Source: Verrucomicrobiota bacterium
GTDB lineage: Bacteria > Verrucomicrobiota > Verrucomicrobiia > Verrucomicrobiales > DEV007
Assembly (NCBI GenBank): GCA_030625775.1
Contig: DAOUQC010000054.1
Coordinates: forward strand, 1 to 35,587
DNA: 35,587 bases
Direction of reading: 5' to 3'
The notes beneath the pieces were generated by a model. That model was not told the DNA's origin and did no database searches. It worked only from the letters and a program-made list of their open reading frames with translations. A program made the position numbers and the translations under genes. This document shows positions 14,243 through 23,305 of the stretch, in pieces. Numbering within the stretch: position 1 is the first letter of the stretch; the number at the start of each line of letters is the position of its first letter.

Positions 14243-15490
14243 TCACCCCTTGTATCGTGTGATCAGCAAAGAAGCGTTGTGGCCACCAAAACCAAACGAA
14301 TTACTCAAAGCCGCATCAATTTGAACCTCTCTGGCCACATTCGGCACGTAATCGAGGTCACACTGCGGATCCGGATTATCAAGATTAATCGTGGGAGGAA
14401 TGATTCCTTCATTCAAAGCTTTGATACACGCCGCCAGTTCTACACCACCAGCCGCACCCAAGAGGTGGCCTGTCATGGATTTGGTTGAGCTCACCAGCAA
14501 ACCGTTTTGGGCATAATCACCGAAAGTTTTTTTGATTGCCTTCGTTTCACACACATCACCCAAACCAGTGGACGTTCCGTGAGCATTCACATAGTTTACG
14601 TCTTCAGGATTCAAATGTGCATGTTTCAAAGCCATCTGCATACAACGCTTGGCTCCCTCTCCTTCCGGATGGGGCGAAGTCAAATGGTAGGCGTCGGCAG
14701 ACACGCCGTATCCTGCCAGCTCACAATAAATGTGTGCTCCACGTTTTTTGGCATGTTCCAATTCTTCGACCACCACGGTACCCGCTCCTTCGCCCATGAC
14801 AAAGCCATCGCGATCCTTGTCAAAAGGGCGAGAAGCTTTTTCGGGTGCGTCGTTGCGGATGCTCAGGGCTTTCATGTTGCCAAAACCCGATAGCCCCATC
14901 GGCGTAATCGATGCCTCGGATCCTCCCGCGACAAACATGTCGGCATCGTCAAATTTAATCATTCTCCACGCCTCGCCAATATTATGATTGGCCGTGGCAC
15001 AAGCCGTGACGATACACATATTCGGTCCACGAAGGTCGAAATCGATCGAAATGATACCGCTGGCAATATTGGCAATCATCATTGGAATCGTAAAAGGCGA
15101 CACCTTGGATGCCCCACGATTAAGCAAAACCGCATGTTGTTTTTCCAGTGTGCCCAAACCACCGATGCCACTGCCTACCATGACCCCAAAACGATCACGG
15201 TCGACTTTATCAAAATCCACCCCACAGTCCTCCAAAGCCATCTTGGCACCTGCAACGCCCAGCTGGGTGAAGCGATCCGCCCGCCGGGCATCCTTGTGGG
15301 ATACGAAAAAAGGTGCCGGGTCAAAATCCTTCACCTGTCCCCCGATCTTGCAGGCAAACGCCTCAGTATCGATCGCGTCGATTAACTGAATACCGCTTTG
15401 CCCGGTGATCAGATTTTCCCAGAAAGTATCCAGATGATTTCCTATTGGTGACAATACACCGATGCCTGTGATGACGACTCTGCGTTCCAT
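14243..15490 (-). CDS. fabF: 3-oxoacyl-[acyl-carrier-protein] synthase II
   Basis: Condensing enzyme that elongates acyl-ACP with malonyl-ACP in type II fatty acid synthesis. The 415-residue protein has the catalytic triad of the family: Cys164 in VTACATANHN, His304 in VNAHGTSTGLGD and His342 in MTGHLLGAAGG, with Lys337 in SSTKS. The N terminus RRVVITGIGVLSPIG and the C-terminal SFGFGGHNASLL are typical. No acpP is adjacent upstream, which differs from the common acpP-fabF pair. It lies at the end of a long minus-strand series, 90 bases after the small zinc-ribbon gene, so co-transcription is possible. Confidence 0.96.
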   Translation of the reverse strand: MERRVVITGIGVLSPIGNHLDTFWENLITGQSGIQLIDAIDTEAFACKIGGQVKDFDPAPFFVSHKDARRADRFTQLGVAGAKMALEDCGVDFDKVDRDRFGVMVGSGIGGLGTLEKQHAVLLNRGASKVSPFTIPMMIANIASGIISIDFDLRGPNMCIVTACATANHNIGEAWRMIKFDDADMFVAGGSEASITPMGLSGFGNMKALSIRNDAPEKASRPFDKDRDGFVMGEGAGTVVVEELEHAKKRGAHIYCELAGYGVSADAYHLTSPHPEGEGAKRCMQMALKHAHLNPEDVNYVNAHGTSTGLGDVCETKAIKKTFGDYAQNGLLVSSTKSMTGHLLGAAGGVELAACIKALNEGIIPPTINLDNPDPQCDLDYVPNVAREVQIDAALSNSFGFGGHNASLLITRYKG

Positions 15491-15580: not shown

Positions 15581-15820
15581 TCAAATTTCACGAACACTGC
15601 CACGCTCGTTCAGACGTCCACAACTGGGGCAGGCTAACAGTTCGCGCTCGGACGGATCCTCAAAACTATGCCCACAAATATCACAAACCACCATTGAGCG
15701 TCGTTTGCGGTTGTCCTGACGAAACCTGAGTAATTCTCCAACCACCCAGGCAAAACAGAGAATCCCCAGCAGAACTGCCATGTAGATGAGAATTAAATGG
15801 GTAAGTGTGACTCGAAACAT
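15581..15820 (-). CDS. Small membrane-anchored zinc-ribbon protein
   Basis: Not recognised by name. A 79-residue protein with one N-terminal membrane helix (about 7-30), then a basic stretch RFRQDNRKRRS, then a zinc-ribbon pattern of two CXXC knuckles, CDIC (46, 49) and CPSC (64, 67), 14 residues apart. The positive-inside rule places the ribbon in the cytoplasm. It follows the TonB-like gene by 26 bases in the ExbB/ExbD series, which suggests a partner role there. The two well-spaced knuckles and the operon position support a real gene. Confidence 0.68.
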   Translation of the reverse strand: MFRVTLTHLILIYMAVLLGILCFAWVVGELLRFRQDNRKRRSMVVCDICGHSFEDPSERELLACPSCGRLNERGSVREI

Positions 15821-15846: not shown

Positions 15847-16377
15847 TCATTGTTTCTTCTCTGGTTCCCCAATAGAGGAATCCTTCGCCTCTGGAGACTC
15901 AAGTTCAAGAAAATCCTCTGTGCTGAATGGTGGGAATATACTTAATTCAGCCGGTAGAGTCAGCGATGCAGAGCTGTCCACAACAGCTTCCCCTAAGGCA
16001 GGTTTTTTAAAGGGAGGAGTCCTGTCAGCAAATGAAGGGCGAAACATAATTGCAAACCCGTCCATGACATTGCGACTTTCCGAACCATTCGAAGCAGGTT
16101 GCAGAAAAATCAGGCGATCATTCAATTCTTGCAAAAGAATGGCATTGCCGGGGTTTTTTTCATCGAGAATCAATACCCGGGCTGGAAAGGGCTCAACTCT
16201 CCCGGACGAAGGATAGACCACTTGGAAAAGATAAAACCCGGTAGCATGCAGGATTAACGACAGGACAACAAAACCCCACAGCCAGAACGATCCGGAATAG
16301 CGCTGGCTCCAGGAAAAAACAAACCCATCCATCTCCTCCACAGAGGCGGCCAGTCTTCTGTTGGCTTTGCCCGGCAT
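15847..16377 (-). CDS. Short TonB/TolA-like membrane protein
   Basis: A 176-residue protein with a 30-residue cytoplasmic N terminus and one membrane helix (about 31-54), then a periplasmic tail. The helix carries Ser40-x3-His44 (LSLILHATG), the SxxxH signature by which TonB contacts ExbB/ExbD. It begins six bases after the ExbD stop, the place expected for a TonB or TolA gene. It lacks a long Pro/Lys spacer and I see no TonB C-terminal domain. The tail is instead partly acidic and ends in GEPEKKQ. It may be a minimal energy transducer or a divergent TolA; the assignment rests on the helix motif and gene order. Confidence 0.66.
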   Translation of the reverse strand: MPGKANRRLAASVEEMDGFVFSWSQRYSGSFWLWGFVVLSLILHATGFYLFQVVYPSSGRVEPFPARVLILDEKNPGNAILLQELNDRLIFLQPASNGSESRNVMDGFAIMFRPSFADRTPPFKKPALGEAVVDSSASLTLPAELSIFPPFSTEDFLELESPEAKDSSIGEPEKKQ

Positions 16378-16382
16378 GGCTT

Positions 16383-16796
16383 CTAATTCTCCTCTTCCGA
16401 GCTGGTGGCATAGACCAGGTCGTACCCGTGCCGCAATACAAGGTTTGAAATTTCGATGACCGAGCCAAATGCGGCAGATTGATCTGCTCGAATGATTACC
16501 TGGTGAACTTTATCAGTGCTGGCATTATTCTCAAGACGCTCGCCCAGTTCATCAAGGGTGACTCGATCTTCATTGAGATAAATACGCAGATTCTCTCCCG
16601 GAGCCAAGGTGATGATGTGGGAGCGATCGATCGAGGGTAGACTGGAATTGGAAAATGGCACCTCAACGGAAATGCCCGATTTGAGGATGAAGTTAGATCC
16701 AAGCAGAAAAAAGATAAGTAACAACAGGACAACATCCAGAACGGGAGCCGAATAGAGAAAATTCGCCCGTGTCGGTAAAGTGGATTCGAGTTTCAT
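16383..16796 (-). CDS. exbD: ExbD/TolR-family proton channel subunit
   Basis: A 137-residue protein with one N-terminal membrane helix bearing the family aspartate in APVLDVVLLLLIFFLL, followed by a periplasmic domain ending in VIRADQSAAFGSVIEI-type sequence. This Asp is the proton-carrying residue of ExbD/TolR. The start is taken as the ATG at 16796, which shares one base with the exbB stop (TGATG) and has GGAG upstream. A TTG one codon earlier is less likely. ExbD/TolR and MotB-like roles are not separable from sequence alone. The TonB-like helix encoded next favours ExbD. Confidence 0.88.
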   Translation of the reverse strand: MKLESTLPTRANFLYSAPVLDVVLLLLIFFLLGSNFILKSGISVEVPFSNSSLPSIDRSHIITLAPGENLRIYLNEDRVTLDELGERLENNASTDKVHQVIIRADQSAAFGSVIEISNLVLRHGYDLVYATSSEEEN

Positions 16797-17527
16797 CAAT
16801 GACTCCCTGATTCGCGATGGCCGTCAGCATCACTGCTTCCAGCTTTTTTTTCGCTCTCACTGGCAGACTTTGCTGCGGCATCGCTGCCCGGCTCGAATTC
16901 GATAATCTCGGAATGGTGATCTCGATTTTCGGCAATGATGTTTACAATCTCGATACCCCCACGCTCCATGTCATGCATCAGGGTTCTGGCATAGGCGAGC
17001 AGAAAAGAATAGATCACAAAAGTCGGCACGGCAACCATCAGCCCGGCGGCAGAGCTGATCAGGCTTTCATACACACCTTTGGAAATCTCAGTGGCCGTGG
17101 CATAACCACCGGTGGCATTCACCTGGACGAAAGTATTAACCAGTCCCAGAATAGTTCCCAACAGACCAATCAGCGGAGCGACGTAGGCAATCGAAAGCAA
17201 GACAGCAAGATGCTTCTCCAGCTTGGGCATCTCAAGCTGACCCGTTTCCTGCACAATTTCTTTCAGATCGGTACGCGGCGCCCCATGATGAAGGATGGCT
17301 GAATGAATCACTCGTGCAACCGGCCCGGGAGTACCAGCACATTCATGTATAGCTTCGGCAAAATTCTTTTTCCGGATCAGGTTCCTCAAGCCGTATAGCA
17401 GGTCTCCTACATCAATCCGCGAGCGGTGAAAGTGAAAATAGCGCTCCAAAGCAATGGCAATCGCCAAAATGCTGCATCCAAGGAGTAACCACATCAACGG
17501 CCCTCCCTTGAAAATCAGATCCATCAT
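16796..17527 (-). CDS. exbB: ExbB/TolQ-family proton channel subunit
   Basis: A 243-residue MotA/TolQ/ExbB protein. An N-terminal helix (about 9-28) precedes a cytoplasmic domain with LERYFHFHRSRID. Two helices follow, containing AYVAPLIGLLGTILGLVNTF and SLISSAAGLMVAVPTFVIY, the most conserved family blocks. With ExbD it forms a proton channel that drives a TonB/TolA-type protein. The last 40 residues are a hydrophilic Ala/Ser/Glu tail not found in E. coli ExbB. It is the first gene of the exbB-exbD-TonB-like-zinc-ribbon group, and 89 bases separate it from the preceding roadblock-like gene. Confidence 0.9.
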   Translation of the reverse strand: MMDLIFKGGPLMWLLLGCSILAIAIALERYFHFHRSRIDVGDLLYGLRNLIRKKNFAEAIHECAGTPGPVARVIHSAILHHGAPRTDLKEIVQETGQLEMPKLEKHLAVLLSIAYVAPLIGLLGTILGLVNTFVQVNATGGYATATEISKGVYESLISSAAGLMVAVPTFVIYSFLLAYARTLMHDMERGGIEIVNIIAENRDHHSEIIEFEPGSDAAAKSASESEKKAGSSDADGHRESGSH

Positions 17528-17616: not shown

Positions 17617-18435
17617 TCAAATGCCAGACTTTATTTTGGCGGCCGCCTGGGTGATGAGCAGTAATTTTTCCCACAGCCCCGGCTGCGGATTTTCATCGGG
17701 ATGGCGTGCCATCAGAGAAAGCCCGACACAGGAAAAACAGCTGACTGAAGAGCTGCCCGAACGCAGTAAAACCCCATCTGACTGATCCAAACCAAGAAGA
17801 GTGAGACCAGATTGCAAAAATTCTGGCGAGGGGGAATTTGGTGCCAGTTCAACGGTTTGAACACTTCCCGACTCTGCACTAGCCAACAAGGCACGGTCAG
17901 AATTTTGAATGAGGCAAGACGTAATGCCCGGAAGCCTGGCCGTCAGGGCAACAATGCTTTCGAGGGTGAAGGGTTCTGTCACGCTAAAAACTGCGCGCAG
18001 TTGAATTTCCGCATCCCGCTGCCCATCAACAGATGGATTCGAACCGGGGCTGCCGTTTGAGGAATCTGTCTCCGTAGAGACAAACGGCTCAAGCTCGTCA
18101 AGGCTATCGAGTTGCGACGACTTGCCTACACTTTCCCGGGCAGAAGGTTCCGGCTCTAGTGAATCCAGAGCATAGACAACAGCTTCATCAGATTGAAATT
18201 CTACCTCTTGCCCACTGCATGCAGGCGTTGCAGTCAGGGCCACCTGATCGGGAGATTGAGCCGTCAGTGGTCCCGGAATGCCAGATCTGAAAGAGGCCGA
18301 CGTTGCCTCTTTAGCCTTTGCGGGGGGAACAGGCCTCGTCCGGCGCTCGGATGCCCCGCGCTGCAGCAGATTCGCAGATCCAGCCTGCGCTGGCTGATCA
18401 TCATCGGTGTAGAGACTGCGAAAAGAAAACCCCAT
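17617..18435 (-). CDS. Unknown protein with possible roadblock-like C-terminal domain
   Basis: Not firmly recognised. The ATG at 18435 gives 272 residues beginning MGFSFRSLYTDDDQP; earlier in-frame starts add an unlikely basic segment. The first 140 residues are low-complexity, rich in Ser, Glu, Pro and Ala, and probably disordered. The last 125, from about LRAVFSVTEPFTLESIVALT, alternate helix and strand in the order of a roadblock/LC7 or longin-like domain: amphipathic helix, LPGITSCLIQNSD strand pair, then GVLLRSG strands and a final helix. Such domains bind small GTPases or dimerise. There is no signal peptide. The gene lies between moxR and exbB in one orientation. Confidence 0.62.
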   Translation of the reverse strand: MGFSFRSLYTDDDQPAQAGSANLLQRGASERRTRPVPPAKAKEATSASFRSGIPGPLTAQSPDQVALTATPACSGQEVEFQSDEAVVYALDSLEPEPSARESVGKSSQLDSLDELEPFVSTETDSSNGSPGSNPSVDGQRDAEIQLRAVFSVTEPFTLESIVALTARLPGITSCLIQNSDRALLASAESGSVQTVELAPNSPSPEFLQSGLTLLGLDQSDGVLLRSGSSSVSCFSCVGLSLMARHPDENPQPGLWEKLLLITQAAAKIKSGI

Positions 18436-18581
18436 GTTTATACTGTCTCTTACAAGTAAGATCCTTGTCCGGAATACGAACGAATCAATGGCCATCTATC
18501 CTGGAACCGTAACCACTAAGGCCGATTATGCCTTAATTTATCCAGATAGTCAATATATACGAATCACCAGTTTTTGATCTT

Positions 18582-19595
18582 TCAGGCTTTTTCTGGAACC
18601 GCCTCTATCAGGCGTTCTATTATTTGATCAACCGTGACATTCTCTGCTTCCGCCCGATAATTGATCAGAATGCGATGCCTGAGTACCGGTTGAGCCAAGG
18701 ATCGAATGTCATCAAAAGTGACATGGGTATTTCCTTCCAATAAAGCCCGGGTCTTGGCGCCGAGGACGAGGAATTGCCCGGCTCGTGTACCTGCCCCCCA
18801 GTTGACCCACTCGTTGATAAAATCAGGTGCCCCCTCTTGTCCGGGACGCGAGGCGGCCGCCAGACGGACTGCGTAGCGAACCACTTCTTCCGCCACCGGC
18901 ACCTGACGCACGATTTCGTGACACTGAATCAAGTCCTCTCCGGAGTATAAGGGCTGCACGGATTCATTCGAGCCCCCCGTCGTTTTTGCCACCACCGTCA
19001 CCTCTTCATCTTCACTGAGGTATTTGACAACAATGTTGAACATGAAACGGTCAAGTTGTGCTTCAGGCAAAGGATAAGTGCCTTCCATTTCGATCGGGTT
19101 TTGAGTCGCAAGCACAAAAAAAGGTTCCTCCAGAGGCATGGTTTGCCCCGCCACGGTCACCTGATGCTCCTGCATCGCCTCCAGAAGAGCCGCCTGGGTT
19201 TTGGGGGGGGTGCGATTGATTTCATCTGCCAGTACGATATTGGCAAAAATTGGCCCCTTGCTGAATACCAGTTCCCGTTTCCCGTCACTGCGGTCCTCGA
19301 GAATTTCCGTGCCAGTGATATCGGATGGCATCAGGTCGGGGGTGAATTGAATACGATGAAAGGACAGGTGAAAGACCTGGGCCAAGGTCCTGACAAGTAA
19401 TGTTTTGGCCAGACCGGGAGCCCCGGTGATCAGACAATGCCCTCCCGATAACAGCGCGATCAACAGTTGCTCCACCGCCTCCTCCTGGCCAACGATCACT
19501 TTGCCAAGTTCCTTACCGATGGCACTGTGTGCCTCGGCAAGTTTTTCAACCAACTCACGCTCCGACACAGGGGGTTTTTCCGACTTTGTAATCAT
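18582..19595 (-). CDS. MoxR-family AAA+ ATPase
   Basis: A 337-residue ATPase of the MoxR/RavA branch. It has Walker A GAPGLAKT (58-65), Walker B VLADEIN (121-127, Asp124 Glu125), the MoxR block RTPPKTQAALLEAMQEHQVTV, sensor-1 LATQNPIEMEGTYPLPEAQLDRF and the C-terminal lid. MoxR proteins act as chaperones for maturation of partner proteins, usually encoded beside DUF58 and von Willebrand A genes. Those partners are not here. The neighbours are a DUF4159 protein 48 bases upstream and a roadblock-like protein downstream. This departs from the usual MoxR-DUF58-Bat order and may mean a different client. Confidence 0.93.
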   Translation of the reverse strand: MITKSEKPPVSERELVEKLAEAHSAIGKELGKVIVGQEEAVEQLLIALLSGGHCLITGAPGLAKTLLVRTLAQVFHLSFHRIQFTPDLMPSDITGTEILEDRSDGKRELVFSKGPIFANIVLADEINRTPPKTQAALLEAMQEHQVTVAGQTMPLEEPFFVLATQNPIEMEGTYPLPEAQLDRFMFNIVVKYLSEDEEVTVVAKTTGGSNESVQPLYSGEDLIQCHEIVRQVPVAEEVVRYAVRLAAASRPGQEGAPDFINEWVNWGAGTRAGQFLVLGAKTRALLEGNTHVTFDDIRSLAQPVLRHRILINYRAEAENVTVDQIIERLIEAVPEKA

Positions 19596-19643
19596 GATAA
19601 ATGTGATGAATTCAGAATTTTCTCCTAACTCCTAACTTGCTCT

Positions 19644-20567
19644 TCAATGCGTCATCGCATAAAAAATAATATTTATACCGAGAGGATAAGCGTATTTCTC
19701 TGAAAATGTTTTGAAATACCAGGGATCGGTTCCCTCTTCCTCCCAGCCATCACCCAGGTCGGTGTTAAAACAGATGACCATGCACATGCGGCCGTCATCG
19801 TCATAGACGGCACGATAGTGCGGAGTTTCGGTGCCGGGTTTATCCCACTCATAGGTAATCCCCCGCTCACGTCCCATCATCGCAATGCCTACCGCAGGAA
19901 TTTGAGGTTTCATATCAATCTGGAAGACCATGTTAAAAATAGGGTGATCCAGTTCCAATTCCACCGGCTCCCGATCGGGGAAAATCTGTTTGAGTCCTTG
20001 ATAAAACACTTCCCATTCATCTGTGCCCCAGAAATCATCAACCATGATGAATCCTCCATTGAGCAAATACTCGCGCAAAATTCGGGCCTCCTCATCCGTC
20101 AGGTAGATATCACCTGGCTCGATCATGTAAACGAAGGGGTAGTGCCTCAGCTGTTCCTCATCGATATCTACGATCGCCCCTTTGGGGTTCACTTCCATTG
20201 AGGTCAATTGCTGCAGGCGATAGGAAAAATTCAGATCAGCATCAGGATAATCGATCAGCCATTTTGGCCGGCGCCGCTGCCACATGCCCGAGTTATACCG
20301 CAGACGCGCAAAGGTAAATACGTCATTAGGCAATTCAGCACTGGTTTTCCAAGTGGGGAAGTCCTGCAATTGCCCCCCAAAAGCATCACGCGGATCTTCC
20401 GGCACCTCTGCATCCTTGACTCCAAAATTAGTGGGGCCAGAACCAGATGGCGATGAGGAAAGCGGCAACGAAGGCTCTTTCGCCCACACCCACCACCCTG
20501 CTCCAAAAAGCACAAGCACAAGCACAAGCGGGGTTAGCGCTACTGTTCGCAGTTTATTACTCATCAC
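19644..20567 (-). CDS. DUF4159 domain protein, membrane-anchored
   Basis: A 307-residue protein with an N-terminal hydrophobic segment (about 10-29) as signal or anchor. A DUF4159 domain covers about 80-307: FTFARLRYNSGMW, then LRHYPFVYMIEPGDIYLTD, LREYLLNGGFIMVDDFWG and a terminal YPLGINIIFYAMTH. The DUF4159 fold is thought to resemble glutamine-amidotransferase/ThuA-like domains; the function is unknown. The family is frequent near MoxR operons in Verrucomicrobiota and Planctomycetota (from memory). Its start overlaps the end of the upstream TPR protein by four bases, so translation is coupled. Confidence 0.87.
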   Translation of the reverse strand: MMSNKLRTVALTPLVLVLVLFGAGWWVWAKEPSLPLSSSPSGSGPTNFGVKDAEVPEDPRDAFGGQLQDFPTWKTSAELPNDVFTFARLRYNSGMWQRRRPKWLIDYPDADLNFSYRLQQLTSMEVNPKGAIVDIDEEQLRHYPFVYMIEPGDIYLTDEEARILREYLLNGGFIMVDDFWGTDEWEVFYQGLKQIFPDREPVELELDHPIFNMVFQIDMKPQIPAVGIAMMGRERGITYEWDKPGTETPHYRAVYDDDGRMCMVICFNTDLGDGWEEEGTDPWYFKTFSEKYAYPLGINIIFYAMTH

Positions 20568-23203
20568 TTGGCGGGCACGCTATCTGCATCATGCATGTTT
20601 TTGTTTTTTGCCATTTCGAGCAACAATTTTCTGGCCTCTCTGTATCTCGGAGCATCAGCCAAAGAGTCGAGCACACGACGTTTTGCCTGCAAGGGGTCAC
20701 TGGCCTGTAGATTGCTTGCCAGGGCAAAGTTTACCTCGGCTGGATTCGCCGGTTGAAGAGTTAATAAGCGTTTGTAGGAGGCAACTGCTTTTTCATTTTC
20801 GCCAAGCCCCTGCCAGGCACGCCCCCGGCTCCAATGAGCCTGTTTTAAAAATGGGTTGATGGCGAGGGCTCGACTGGTGTTTAGCAGCAGCCCTTGCCAG
20901 TTGCCCAATGCCAGATCAATATCAAGAAGCCGCAAGTAAGTATTCAAAGCCTCCCCCGAGCGCCAGGCCAATTCGCGTAAAGCGGCGGCTTCCTTTTTCG
21001 GCTGGTTCAAGGCCCGGTGAGCCACCGCCTTCATCACGTAGGCGTTGTCTCCCTCAACATACTCCGGGAAAAGCTCGATCATCCAGAGTGCTGATTCGAT
21101 AACTTCTTTCCAGCGCTTCGCCGCCAGCAAATTCGAAGTGTGGATCTGAAGAATCCTGAAATTATCCGGATTAACTTTGGTGTAAGCTTCAACCATATCA
21201 GGAGCTGCCAGATCCACTTTTTCCGGATCCGGATCCATCCAGTCAACACCCGGGCCAAGATTGATGGCCAGCAACCTGACTTCCTCCGCAAAGCCTTCTT
21301 CCAATTCCTCCATTGCCCCCGTCTGCCGGGCGATGGCATCATTGATCAACACGCCATTTCCAAGATCATTGAGGATTTTTCGCAAGGACTCCATACCAAA
21401 AGTGCGGACGAGATAATCGACAAACAAATACGATTCAAAATAAGCAAACATCAGATGCTCCCCATCCTTGGCATTCAAAAAAGCACTGCTCAAGTTGCCG
21501 ACCGGAGTCAGTGCATCCTCTTCCAGAATCATTTTTCGGTAGCGGGGCGTCATGCTCTGGCCCCAGGCCGGATTGTGTTGCCGCTCTTCGTAAACGGAAA
21601 TGCCTTCACTCAACCAGCGTGGCATGCGGTTATTGGTCAGGGTCAAAGTGACCACGTGGCAAAATTCATGCCAGAGAGTCGCTTCCCAGTTATTTCGCTC
21701 AGCAGTGAGCCCGCCCGGGCTGTTGACGGTGATGACCGATCCAAAACACGCACCAAGAATTCCGGCACCACCAAGATTACCCAGGGTGCGAATGGCAAAA
21801 TCCTGCTGGTTGGGAAAAAATTCAACCAAAATAGGCTTATTCAGTTCAAGCCCATACTTCTGACAGAGAACTTGTTTGGCTTCATTCAACAGCAAAAGCG
21901 CCCGGTCACCGTAAATCCCCACTTCGTTTTCCGGCATGCGAATGGTGAAGTCCCTTGTCTCGATAGTGACAAATTTTTGCATTTCCTCCTGCAGCAATCC
22001 CAGGTTATATGCCGCCACGTTGTAGGGATCTGCATCAGCCACCGCAGCAGCCAGTTTCCAGGCATCCTCTTCATCTCCCAGACGGAGAAGGTCGTCAGCC
22101 AGTTGCAGGGTGGCATTTTGAAAATTTCCGTCCAGGGAAAGGGCCTGACGTTGGTACTCAGCTCCCTTGCTGAAACGATATGCACGGGTCAGCACTTTGC
22201 CAATAACATGATCAACCTGTGGATTTTTTGCCCACAGCTTCAGCCCGTTTTTGCGATACATGGCCGTGGTCTTGACGTCAGCCGCAGTCAGCTCTGCCAG
22301 TGCCGCCTTCATCGCCCAGGCCTGTGGGCTGCTTTCATTGACAGACAACACTCGATCCAGGTAGGTTGCTCCTTCGATAAAATTTTCCGCACCAATCGCA
22401 TGCTGTGCCAGCAATAACAACGCCCCTTCATGCGCGGGGTTTGTCTGCAGGGTTCGGTTGAGATACTGCAGTGATTTCCTCTGATCGTCCGGGTAAAAGG
22501 ATTGGGCGAGACCAAAGCGCAGATCGGGATGATTGGGTGCCAGTTTCAGACCTGCAGAAAATTCCCTGGCGGCTTTGGCATAATCAGATTTTTCCAGAGC
22601 CAGATTGCCTACCGCCTGATAAGCCGCCACCACATCGTAAGGAGTTTGATTCTTGAACTGGGGAGCGGATTTTTTCTTTTTGGCCGGCTCATAATACTGG
22701 CTGATCACTTTTCCCGGATCTGCACCGAGAGCAACAGCCGCTTTTCCCAGAGCAACCAAATCTGATGCCGAGCGCTCTTTCCTGTTTTTTTCCAGAGCCA
22801 CACGATTAACACGCGTTAAAATATCGGCTGCAGCTGAAGTTTCCCCAATTTGCCTCGCCAGCTCATAAGTGACCATCAGGGCCGTCAGGTCTTTCCCCGT
22901 GCGAGTATCCAATCGTGTTTGAGCCAGCTCAAAGGCTGCCACCACACGGCCTTGAAGCGCCAAGGCTTGCCATTGCATCACCTCCCAGTCGGGCGAAGGC
23001 TGGCCTTTTGATTGAGCGTATTCGCAAAGACGTTCGACGAGATCGTATTTGCCGGAAGCTAACAACTCACGTACGGCGGGAATATTTCGCTCATCAAAAA
23101 AACGCTTGTAATCATTCTGTGCCTGGGCCGATGCCAGAGTGAATGCCAAACAGAGCAAAAGCAGCCACCACAGGGATCTGCGATTTTGTAGAGCTGGCGG
23201 CAT
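20564..23203 (-). CDS. Secreted TPR protein with gluzincin-type metallopeptidase domain
   Basis: An 879-residue protein. A signal peptide (about 1-28, ending ASAQAQ) is followed by some 380 residues of TPR-like helices (for example DYAKAAREFSAGLKLAPNHP). A peptidase domain of the MA clan comes next, with the zinc motif HEFCH (512-516) and third ligand Glu533 in WLSEGISVYEE. More TPR-like repeats (ALAINPFLKQAHWSRGRAWQ) lie near the C terminus. Substrates are unknown; the architecture suggests a periplasmic scaffold that cuts proteins. The ATG at 23203 lacks a clear ribosome site; a GTG at 23218 is the alternative. It shares four bases with the DUF4159 start. Confidence 0.84.
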   Translation of the reverse strand: MPPALQNRRSLWWLLLLCLAFTLASAQAQNDYKRFFDERNIPAVRELLASGKYDLVERLCEYAQSKGQPSPDWEVMQWQALALQGRVVAAFELAQTRLDTRTGKDLTALMVTYELARQIGETSAAADILTRVNRVALEKNRKERSASDLVALGKAAVALGADPGKVISQYYEPAKKKKSAPQFKNQTPYDVVAAYQAVGNLALEKSDYAKAAREFSAGLKLAPNHPDLRFGLAQSFYPDDQRKSLQYLNRTLQTNPAHEGALLLLAQHAIGAENFIEGATYLDRVLSVNESSPQAWAMKAALAELTAADVKTTAMYRKNGLKLWAKNPQVDHVIGKVLTRAYRFSKGAEYQRQALSLDGNFQNATLQLADDLLRLGDEEDAWKLAAAVADADPYNVAAYNLGLLQEEMQKFVTIETRDFTIRMPENEVGIYGDRALLLLNEAKQVLCQKYGLELNKPILVEFFPNQQDFAIRTLGNLGGAGILGACFGSVITVNSPGGLTAERNNWEATLWHEFCHVVTLTLTNNRMPRWLSEGISVYEERQHNPAWGQSMTPRYRKMILEEDALTPVGNLSSAFLNAKDGEHLMFAYFESYLFVDYLVRTFGMESLRKILNDLGNGVLINDAIARQTGAMEELEEGFAEEVRLLAINLGPGVDWMDPDPEKVDLAAPDMVEAYTKVNPDNFRILQIHTSNLLAAKRWKEVIESALWMIELFPEYVEGDNAYVMKAVAHRALNQPKKEAAALRELAWRSGEALNTYLRLLDIDLALGNWQGLLLNTSRALAINPFLKQAHWSRGRAWQGLGENEKAVASYKRLLTLQPANPAEVNFALASNLQASDPLQAKRRVLDSLADAPRYREARKLLLEMAKNKNMHDADSVPAK

Positions 23204-23305
23204 GGGGGGTGCAAACACATGATCAATGAAGCGGAGATTGGCCTGCGGGTAAAGCCTGCAGTTTTTTGTTTTTTTGTGAGCGGATTTATTGCGCCGGTTT
23301 TTTAG

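Follow-up and report, generated by a model that had tools for sequence, protein, structure and literature searches.

The 176-aa protein encoded at positions 15847–16377 of the minus strand (an ORF with an ATG start, stop codon included) of the window, by which we mean the whole 35,587-nt stretch of DNA analysed here, is, judging from sequence comparison, a C-terminally shortened member of a TonB/TolA family of Verrucomicrobiota and not a separate minimal family. It is well supported that the protein belongs to this family, has lost its C-terminal domain (CTD) secondarily and is still selected. ExbBD motors are thought to drive the outer membrane via the CTD of TonB or TolA, which grips the receptor or TolB by β-strand addition. 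The reading we prefer, to which we give an even chance, is that the short protein is coupled to a motor and does its work through the juxtamembrane module (residues 57–122, approximately), near the inner membrane and not on a TonB-dependent receptor.

The order of genes on the minus strand is exbB, exbD, the gene of the 176-aa protein, a zinc-ribbon gene and fabF. ExbB/TolQ (16796–17527, minus strand; PF01618, E 1.9e-25) and ExbD/TolR (16383–16799, minus strand; PF02472, E 3.5e-18), the latter with its transmembrane Asp22 present (alignment column 22), are the immediate upstream neighbours on the same strand; the initial annotation had placed the gene directly after exbD. On the other side lies a one-helix protein of 79 aa with a C-terminal zinc ribbon (15581–15820, minus strand), recognised from its sequence, the zinc-ribbon matches being weak and below the cut-off. 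A zinc-ribbon gene is directly 3′ of the family gene in 74 of the 91 loci covered by the profile scan. fabF (14243–15490, minus strand), assigned by TIGR03150 (E 2.7e-193) and synteny, is also found farther downstream at many related loci. The upstream region 17617–23218 of the window encodes a 292-aa protein, a MoxR-type AAA ATPase, a DUF4159 protein and a TPR/peptidase-MA protein, and this gene order is repeated at loci L032 and L033. A profile search of the genome found no receptor plug domain on the contig of the window.

Homologues are widespread among the relatives. At E ≤ 1, a protein search picked up 81 of 95 genomes, the own genome included, and many of the weak matches are noise. By alignment search, the family was found at E ≤ 1e-5 in 65 of the 74 genomes of the taxonomic family and in 40 of the 41 good-quality ones. 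With iterated profiles, the fetched loci yielded 91 ORFs. The 77 distinct ones (own protein included) comprise seven short forms (148–178 aa), 69 long forms (231–318 aa) and one sequence truncated at the end of its contig. The family gene is present in 22 of the 24 ExbB-carrying Verrucomicrobiota loci fetched; L043 is cut at a contig end and the family gene is not seen there, and at L044 neither exbD nor the family gene was found. It was likewise not found at the exbB loci of Algoriphagus (L056) and Bacteriovoracaceae (L057), and a long form used as query gave no match among plasmids. Three alignments were used, A1 with 61 of 68 long forms, A2 with 46 of 75 and A3 with 62 of 68; L071 and L076 are among the rows left out of A3, and L054, which contains X, is left out of all three. 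In the accessible portions of the open-access literature, PMC13274419 included, we found neither this Verrucomicrobiota family nor a naturally CTD-less TonB described.

The 176-aa protein can be divided into three parts. A single transmembrane helix is predicted at residues 29–54 (16216–16293, minus strand) by AlphaFold2 and column counts. It contains both Ser40 and His44, in agreement with the initial annotation, which had placed Ser40-x3-His44 in the only membrane helix. The helix is followed by a family-specific periplasmic module at residues 57–122 (16012–16209, minus strand), made up of a strand-like RVLILD (67–72), a predicted helix (76–92) and FRPSF (112–116); its conserved columns are D87, R88, F112, P114 and F116. 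Residues 123–176 (15850–16011, minus strand) form a poorly conserved, low-confidence tail (pLDDT about 50–60), and it is from the corresponding region that the long homologues continue towards their CTD. In the AlphaFold2 model (mean pLDDT 67.2, pTM 0.28) the helix 29–54 is confident and the helix 76–92 fair, with little else. Conservation along the last 120 residues is uneven, about 57–122 being kept and the remainder much less. These residues contain 13 Pro and 6 Lys, a correction to the initial description, in which the tail showed no Pro/Lys spacer. No Pfam or NCBIfam model matched the protein at E ≤ 1, and a vWA domain was not found (0 Pfam families at E ≤ 1). A TonB CTD is absent from the library matches, from the scan with the CTD profile of the family and from the predicted model. 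The initial view that the protein has no receptor-binding fold therefore stands, and the TonB_C match that was considered as evidence against it did not appear.

A SxxxH motif in a single sequence is unremarkable, because 6.7% of shuffles of the helix of the 176-aa protein have one. In the family, S40 and H44 occur jointly in 46 of the 77 distinct homologues, while after per-row shuffling any SxxxH was present in 3.7 rows on average and in 11 at most; H44 alone is found in 65 of the 77. All seven short forms have both S40 and H44. The motif is thus conserved in orthologues, a point that the initial annotation had singled out for checking. F51 is at the position of the Leu in the SHLS of TonB, which we take to be Leu27 of E. 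coli TonB, and Y55, just past the helix, is at the position of the second Ser. The 176-aa protein thus has the S and H of SHLS; across the family, F is at offset +11 in 76 of 77 homologues and Y at +15 in 54 of 77, where offsets are based on the E. coli TonB helix printed in the available part of PMC9008036. SHLS is described as the motor motif of the membrane helix in an excerpt of PMC12204202. Partial texts of PMC11658791 and PMC10666116 report, respectively, that TonB H20A and ExbD D25N are inactive and that H20A also abolishes colicin activity. It is likely that the 176-aa protein is motor-bound, insofar as conserved residues and gene neighbourhood can tell.

The family gene adjoins exbD in 68 of the 77 distinct homologues, and in all seven short forms the adjoining ExbD has Asp22. 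No ExbD was detected nearby for nine distinct homologues (L070, L072, L083, L085 and L090–L094), and His44 is lost in L070 and L072. The transmembrane Asp is replaced in 17 of the 68 family ExbDs, by Asn in 16 and by Gly in one (e.g. L084, L086, L074, L050, L067). Loss of His44 in the partner is seen in 10 of the 17 cases with a non-Asp ExbD and in 0 of the 51 with Asp (Fisher 6.7e-8). We rejected this link as independent evidence since a single branch of the tree splits Asp from not-Asp. The non-Asp ExbDs may point to a lineage with a motor unable to use protons, with one change on the tree in either direction. Regarding the start of the module, columns 67–72 are successively polar, hydrophobic, mixed, hydrophobic, hydrophobic and polar, and resemble the D-box as presented in a portion of PMC10907165, where this motor box of TonB sits after the membrane helix. 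In column 66, only 34% of the residues are hydrophobic. The full D-box pattern was found in a free scan in 15 of 76 rows (L046, cut by a contig end, omitted) as compared to a shuffle mean of 6.1 and a maximum of 16, i.e. not above the best shuffle.

The long forms terminate in a domain of ~90 residues that we regard as homologous to TonB_C on the basis of profile–profile comparison and predicted fold. At E < 1e-3, the family CTD profile matches 67 of the 69 distinct long forms, five of the seven outside its building set among them; L071 and L076 do not match at 1e-3. In hhalign, the long-form CTD aligned with TonB CTDs from relatives (22 sequences, after omission of one of 23 matches) at 95.8% (E 8.3e-9, 50 columns), as compared to 0.1–0.4% in four controls. 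A PDB profile search with the CTD profile gave TonB in 11 of 17 matches, including all of the first ten (E 0.041–0.54), and the top eleven matches have E values of 0.041–0.63, none of them significant alone. With the whole-length alignment A2, DnaK fragments were at the top (E 0.2 and up) and TonB appeared once (0.47). In the predicted model of the long form L053, the CTD has pLDDT 92–97 from residue 161 on, apart from one block with pLDDT 79. Structural comparison by VIA-align placed TonB, FusB or TolA CTDs in all of rows 1–21 (Z 8.2 to 4.6), followed by RNA polymerase (4.4); the best row (Z 8.2, rmsd 2.7, 77 residues) is the only one to reach Z 8. The top seven Foldseek matches are TonB (E 0.05–0.14), with none at E ≤ 0.001. 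Single-sequence searches hardly detect the relationship: among 61 long forms, Pfam TonB_2 was matched by two (best 0.0082) and TonB_C by one (0.15), the unrelated LPD18 model scoring better than either (0.0023), and TIGR01352 tonB_Cterm was matched by three of the 46 A2 members (best 0.001). The initial annotation had called the 176-aa protein a minimal TonB-like protein. The TonB-like helix and the missing CTD hold, but the protein is better described as a shortened relative of long homologues with a TonB-type CTD.

Since the long homologues carry a TonB-type CTD, the short form is explained by secondary loss, which probably took place three or four times. By profile coverage, the family member is a short form in seven of the 65 genomes of the taxonomic family that gave a match. 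More specifically, short forms occur in 3/3 genomes of the genus of the window, 2/2 of g10, 1/1 of g13 and 1/4 of g12. Repeated loss is suggested because they do not form one clade: in a tree from concatenated ExbB, ExbD and N-terminal sequences (64 rows having all three genes), short forms are nested ungrouped among long forms, with at least three changes. The drawn tree would require four losses, provided that a lost CTD was never regained. A single origin was rejected on this concatenated tree (p-AU 1.65e-5), with caution due to the long branches of L027 and L010. The tree of the N-terminal part alone, which has few columns, needs three changes and is compatible with a single origin. L046 was omitted from both trees.

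Other explanations of the missing domain were considered. A separate CTD gene near the short form was rejected, as scanning the window and a further nine short-form loci with the profile in six frames gave nothing at E ≤ 10 (note that L001 is the window again and L032/L033 repeat L004/L003). CTD searches of the seven short-form genomes gave weak matches only, the best being 4.6e-5 in G014, as compared to 3.9e-16 to 5.4e-27 in three long-form control genomes. The G014 match is not a detached CTD but the last portion of a Pro-rich TonB of the ordinary kind (TonB_C 2.7e-20). The matches in G000, G001 and G002 (about 0.001–0.003) overlap ordinary TonBs there. Remaining weak matches are at 0.00285 and up. 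A frameshift or assembly artefact was also rejected: the two congeners of the window (61–62% identity) are likewise short, so that three genomes of the genus agree, and the zinc-ribbon frame starts soon after the stop.

Substitution rates suggest that the shortened protein is maintained. Comparing the window with its two congeners, dN is 0.18–0.22 over residues 1–122, with dS of 1.93 and 1.81 in the two computable pairs, and 0.68–0.95 over the tail, with dS of 2.8 in the sole computable pair; dS is near or past saturation, which makes dN/dS rough. For ExbD and ExbB dN is 0.06–0.10, so that residues 1–122 evolve at roughly two to three times their rate. These rough ratios point to purifying selection on residues 1–122 and much less on the tail, and they point to a protein in which the helix and the 57–122 module matter most.

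What could the protein do without a CTD? We propose that the helix docks on ExbB via S40/H44, that the strand C-terminal to this helix may pair with the periplasmic domain of ExbD like the D-box of TonB, and that proton flow via ExbBD would move or reshape the 57–122 module. As the CTD that grips the receptor or TolB is missing, the partner of the protein would be something other than a TonB-dependent receptor, close to the inner membrane or the cell wall, with the motor itself, the zinc-ribbon membrane protein and peptidoglycan as candidates. The initial suggestion that the protein may energise something else than a TonB-dependent receptor is plausible: it fits the missing CTD, and the receptor plugs of the genome are on other contigs, two of them with TonB nearby. 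The genome has nine ExbD matches and three receptor plugs, on contigs C14, C19 and C57. TonB_C is matched over the cut-off on C19 and C57 and weakly, below the cut-off, on C70. On C19 the plug protein adjoins TonB, and on C57 the receptor, ExbB, ExbD and TonB_C are within about 7 kb. The TonB receptor plug protein of C14 (L116:508–2442) is on a contig without a TonB_C match at E ≤ 1. A broader version of our preferred reading, which we put forward tentatively, is that the ExbBD motor is used here without an outer-membrane arm, the core job belonging to the juxtamembrane module and the CTD being an optional extra that was dropped repeatedly.

The TonB_C matches on C19 and C57, together with the weak one on C70, would also suit a motor accessory: the protein would sit where TonB normally binds ExbBD and have a regulatory or stabilising effect on the motor, and a canonical TonB encoded elsewhere would serve the outer membrane. 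The conserved portion of the short form consists of the motor-side parts, as such a role would have it. However, the protein has its own ExbB–ExbD, separate from the ExbDs of C57 and C70 that are near other transducers, and there is no evidence of cross-use; we consider this role rather unlikely. It is more doubtful still that the protein remains an outer-membrane transducer whose disordered tail, with a PP motif in the genus of the window, reaches its partner via a short linear motif. An extended tail of 120 residues could span the periplasm, and the genus retains, near residue 150, an FPPF/LPPV-like motif that is common among long forms, but this motif is absent from L005 and L008, and the tail is poorly conserved even inside the genus. 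Finally, a transducer in decay, its CTD gone and the remainder drifting, would match the weakly constrained tail, the recurrent CTD losses and the faster evolution of residues 1–122 relative to ExbB/ExbD, but is very improbable given that dN of these residues is far below dS in two computable pairs of three species and that all seven short forms have exbB and exbD directly upstream and a zinc-ribbon reading frame close behind the stop (that of L027 was missed by the profile scan).

If our preferred reading of a motor-coupled protein working through its juxtamembrane module is true, ExbBD motors can have an inner-membrane purpose. A conserved and selected CTD-less member of the TonB family would then offer a natural way to test the function of the motor-proximal half on its own.

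Three known systems can be compared with the protein. The vWA force transducers reported from Verrucomicrobia (excerpted text of PMC12204202) share motor-gene neighbours and, as to its S and H, a SHLS-type helix, but have a C-terminal vWA domain, which was not found in the 176-aa protein. A cluster on contig C9 of the own genome (L119), with a TPR protein, two ExbDs and a weak-vWA protein (E 0.0053, below the cut-off), resembles these transducers and is separate from the cluster of the window. With TolA the protein shares the architecture class, and similarity to TolA domain III is likewise seen in the CTD of the long forms; in contrast, its downstream neighbours are the zinc-ribbon gene and fabF instead of tolB–pal, and a genome search for TolB_N gave nothing at E ≤ 0.01. 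TonB shares the adjacency of exbB–exbD and one N-terminal membrane helix with S-x3-H, and its CTD has a homologue in the long relatives. Unlike TonB, the 176-aa protein is encoded on a contig without a receptor plug domain, has no CTD, has F and Y in place of the Leu and the second Ser of SHLS, and carries its own conserved module after the helix.
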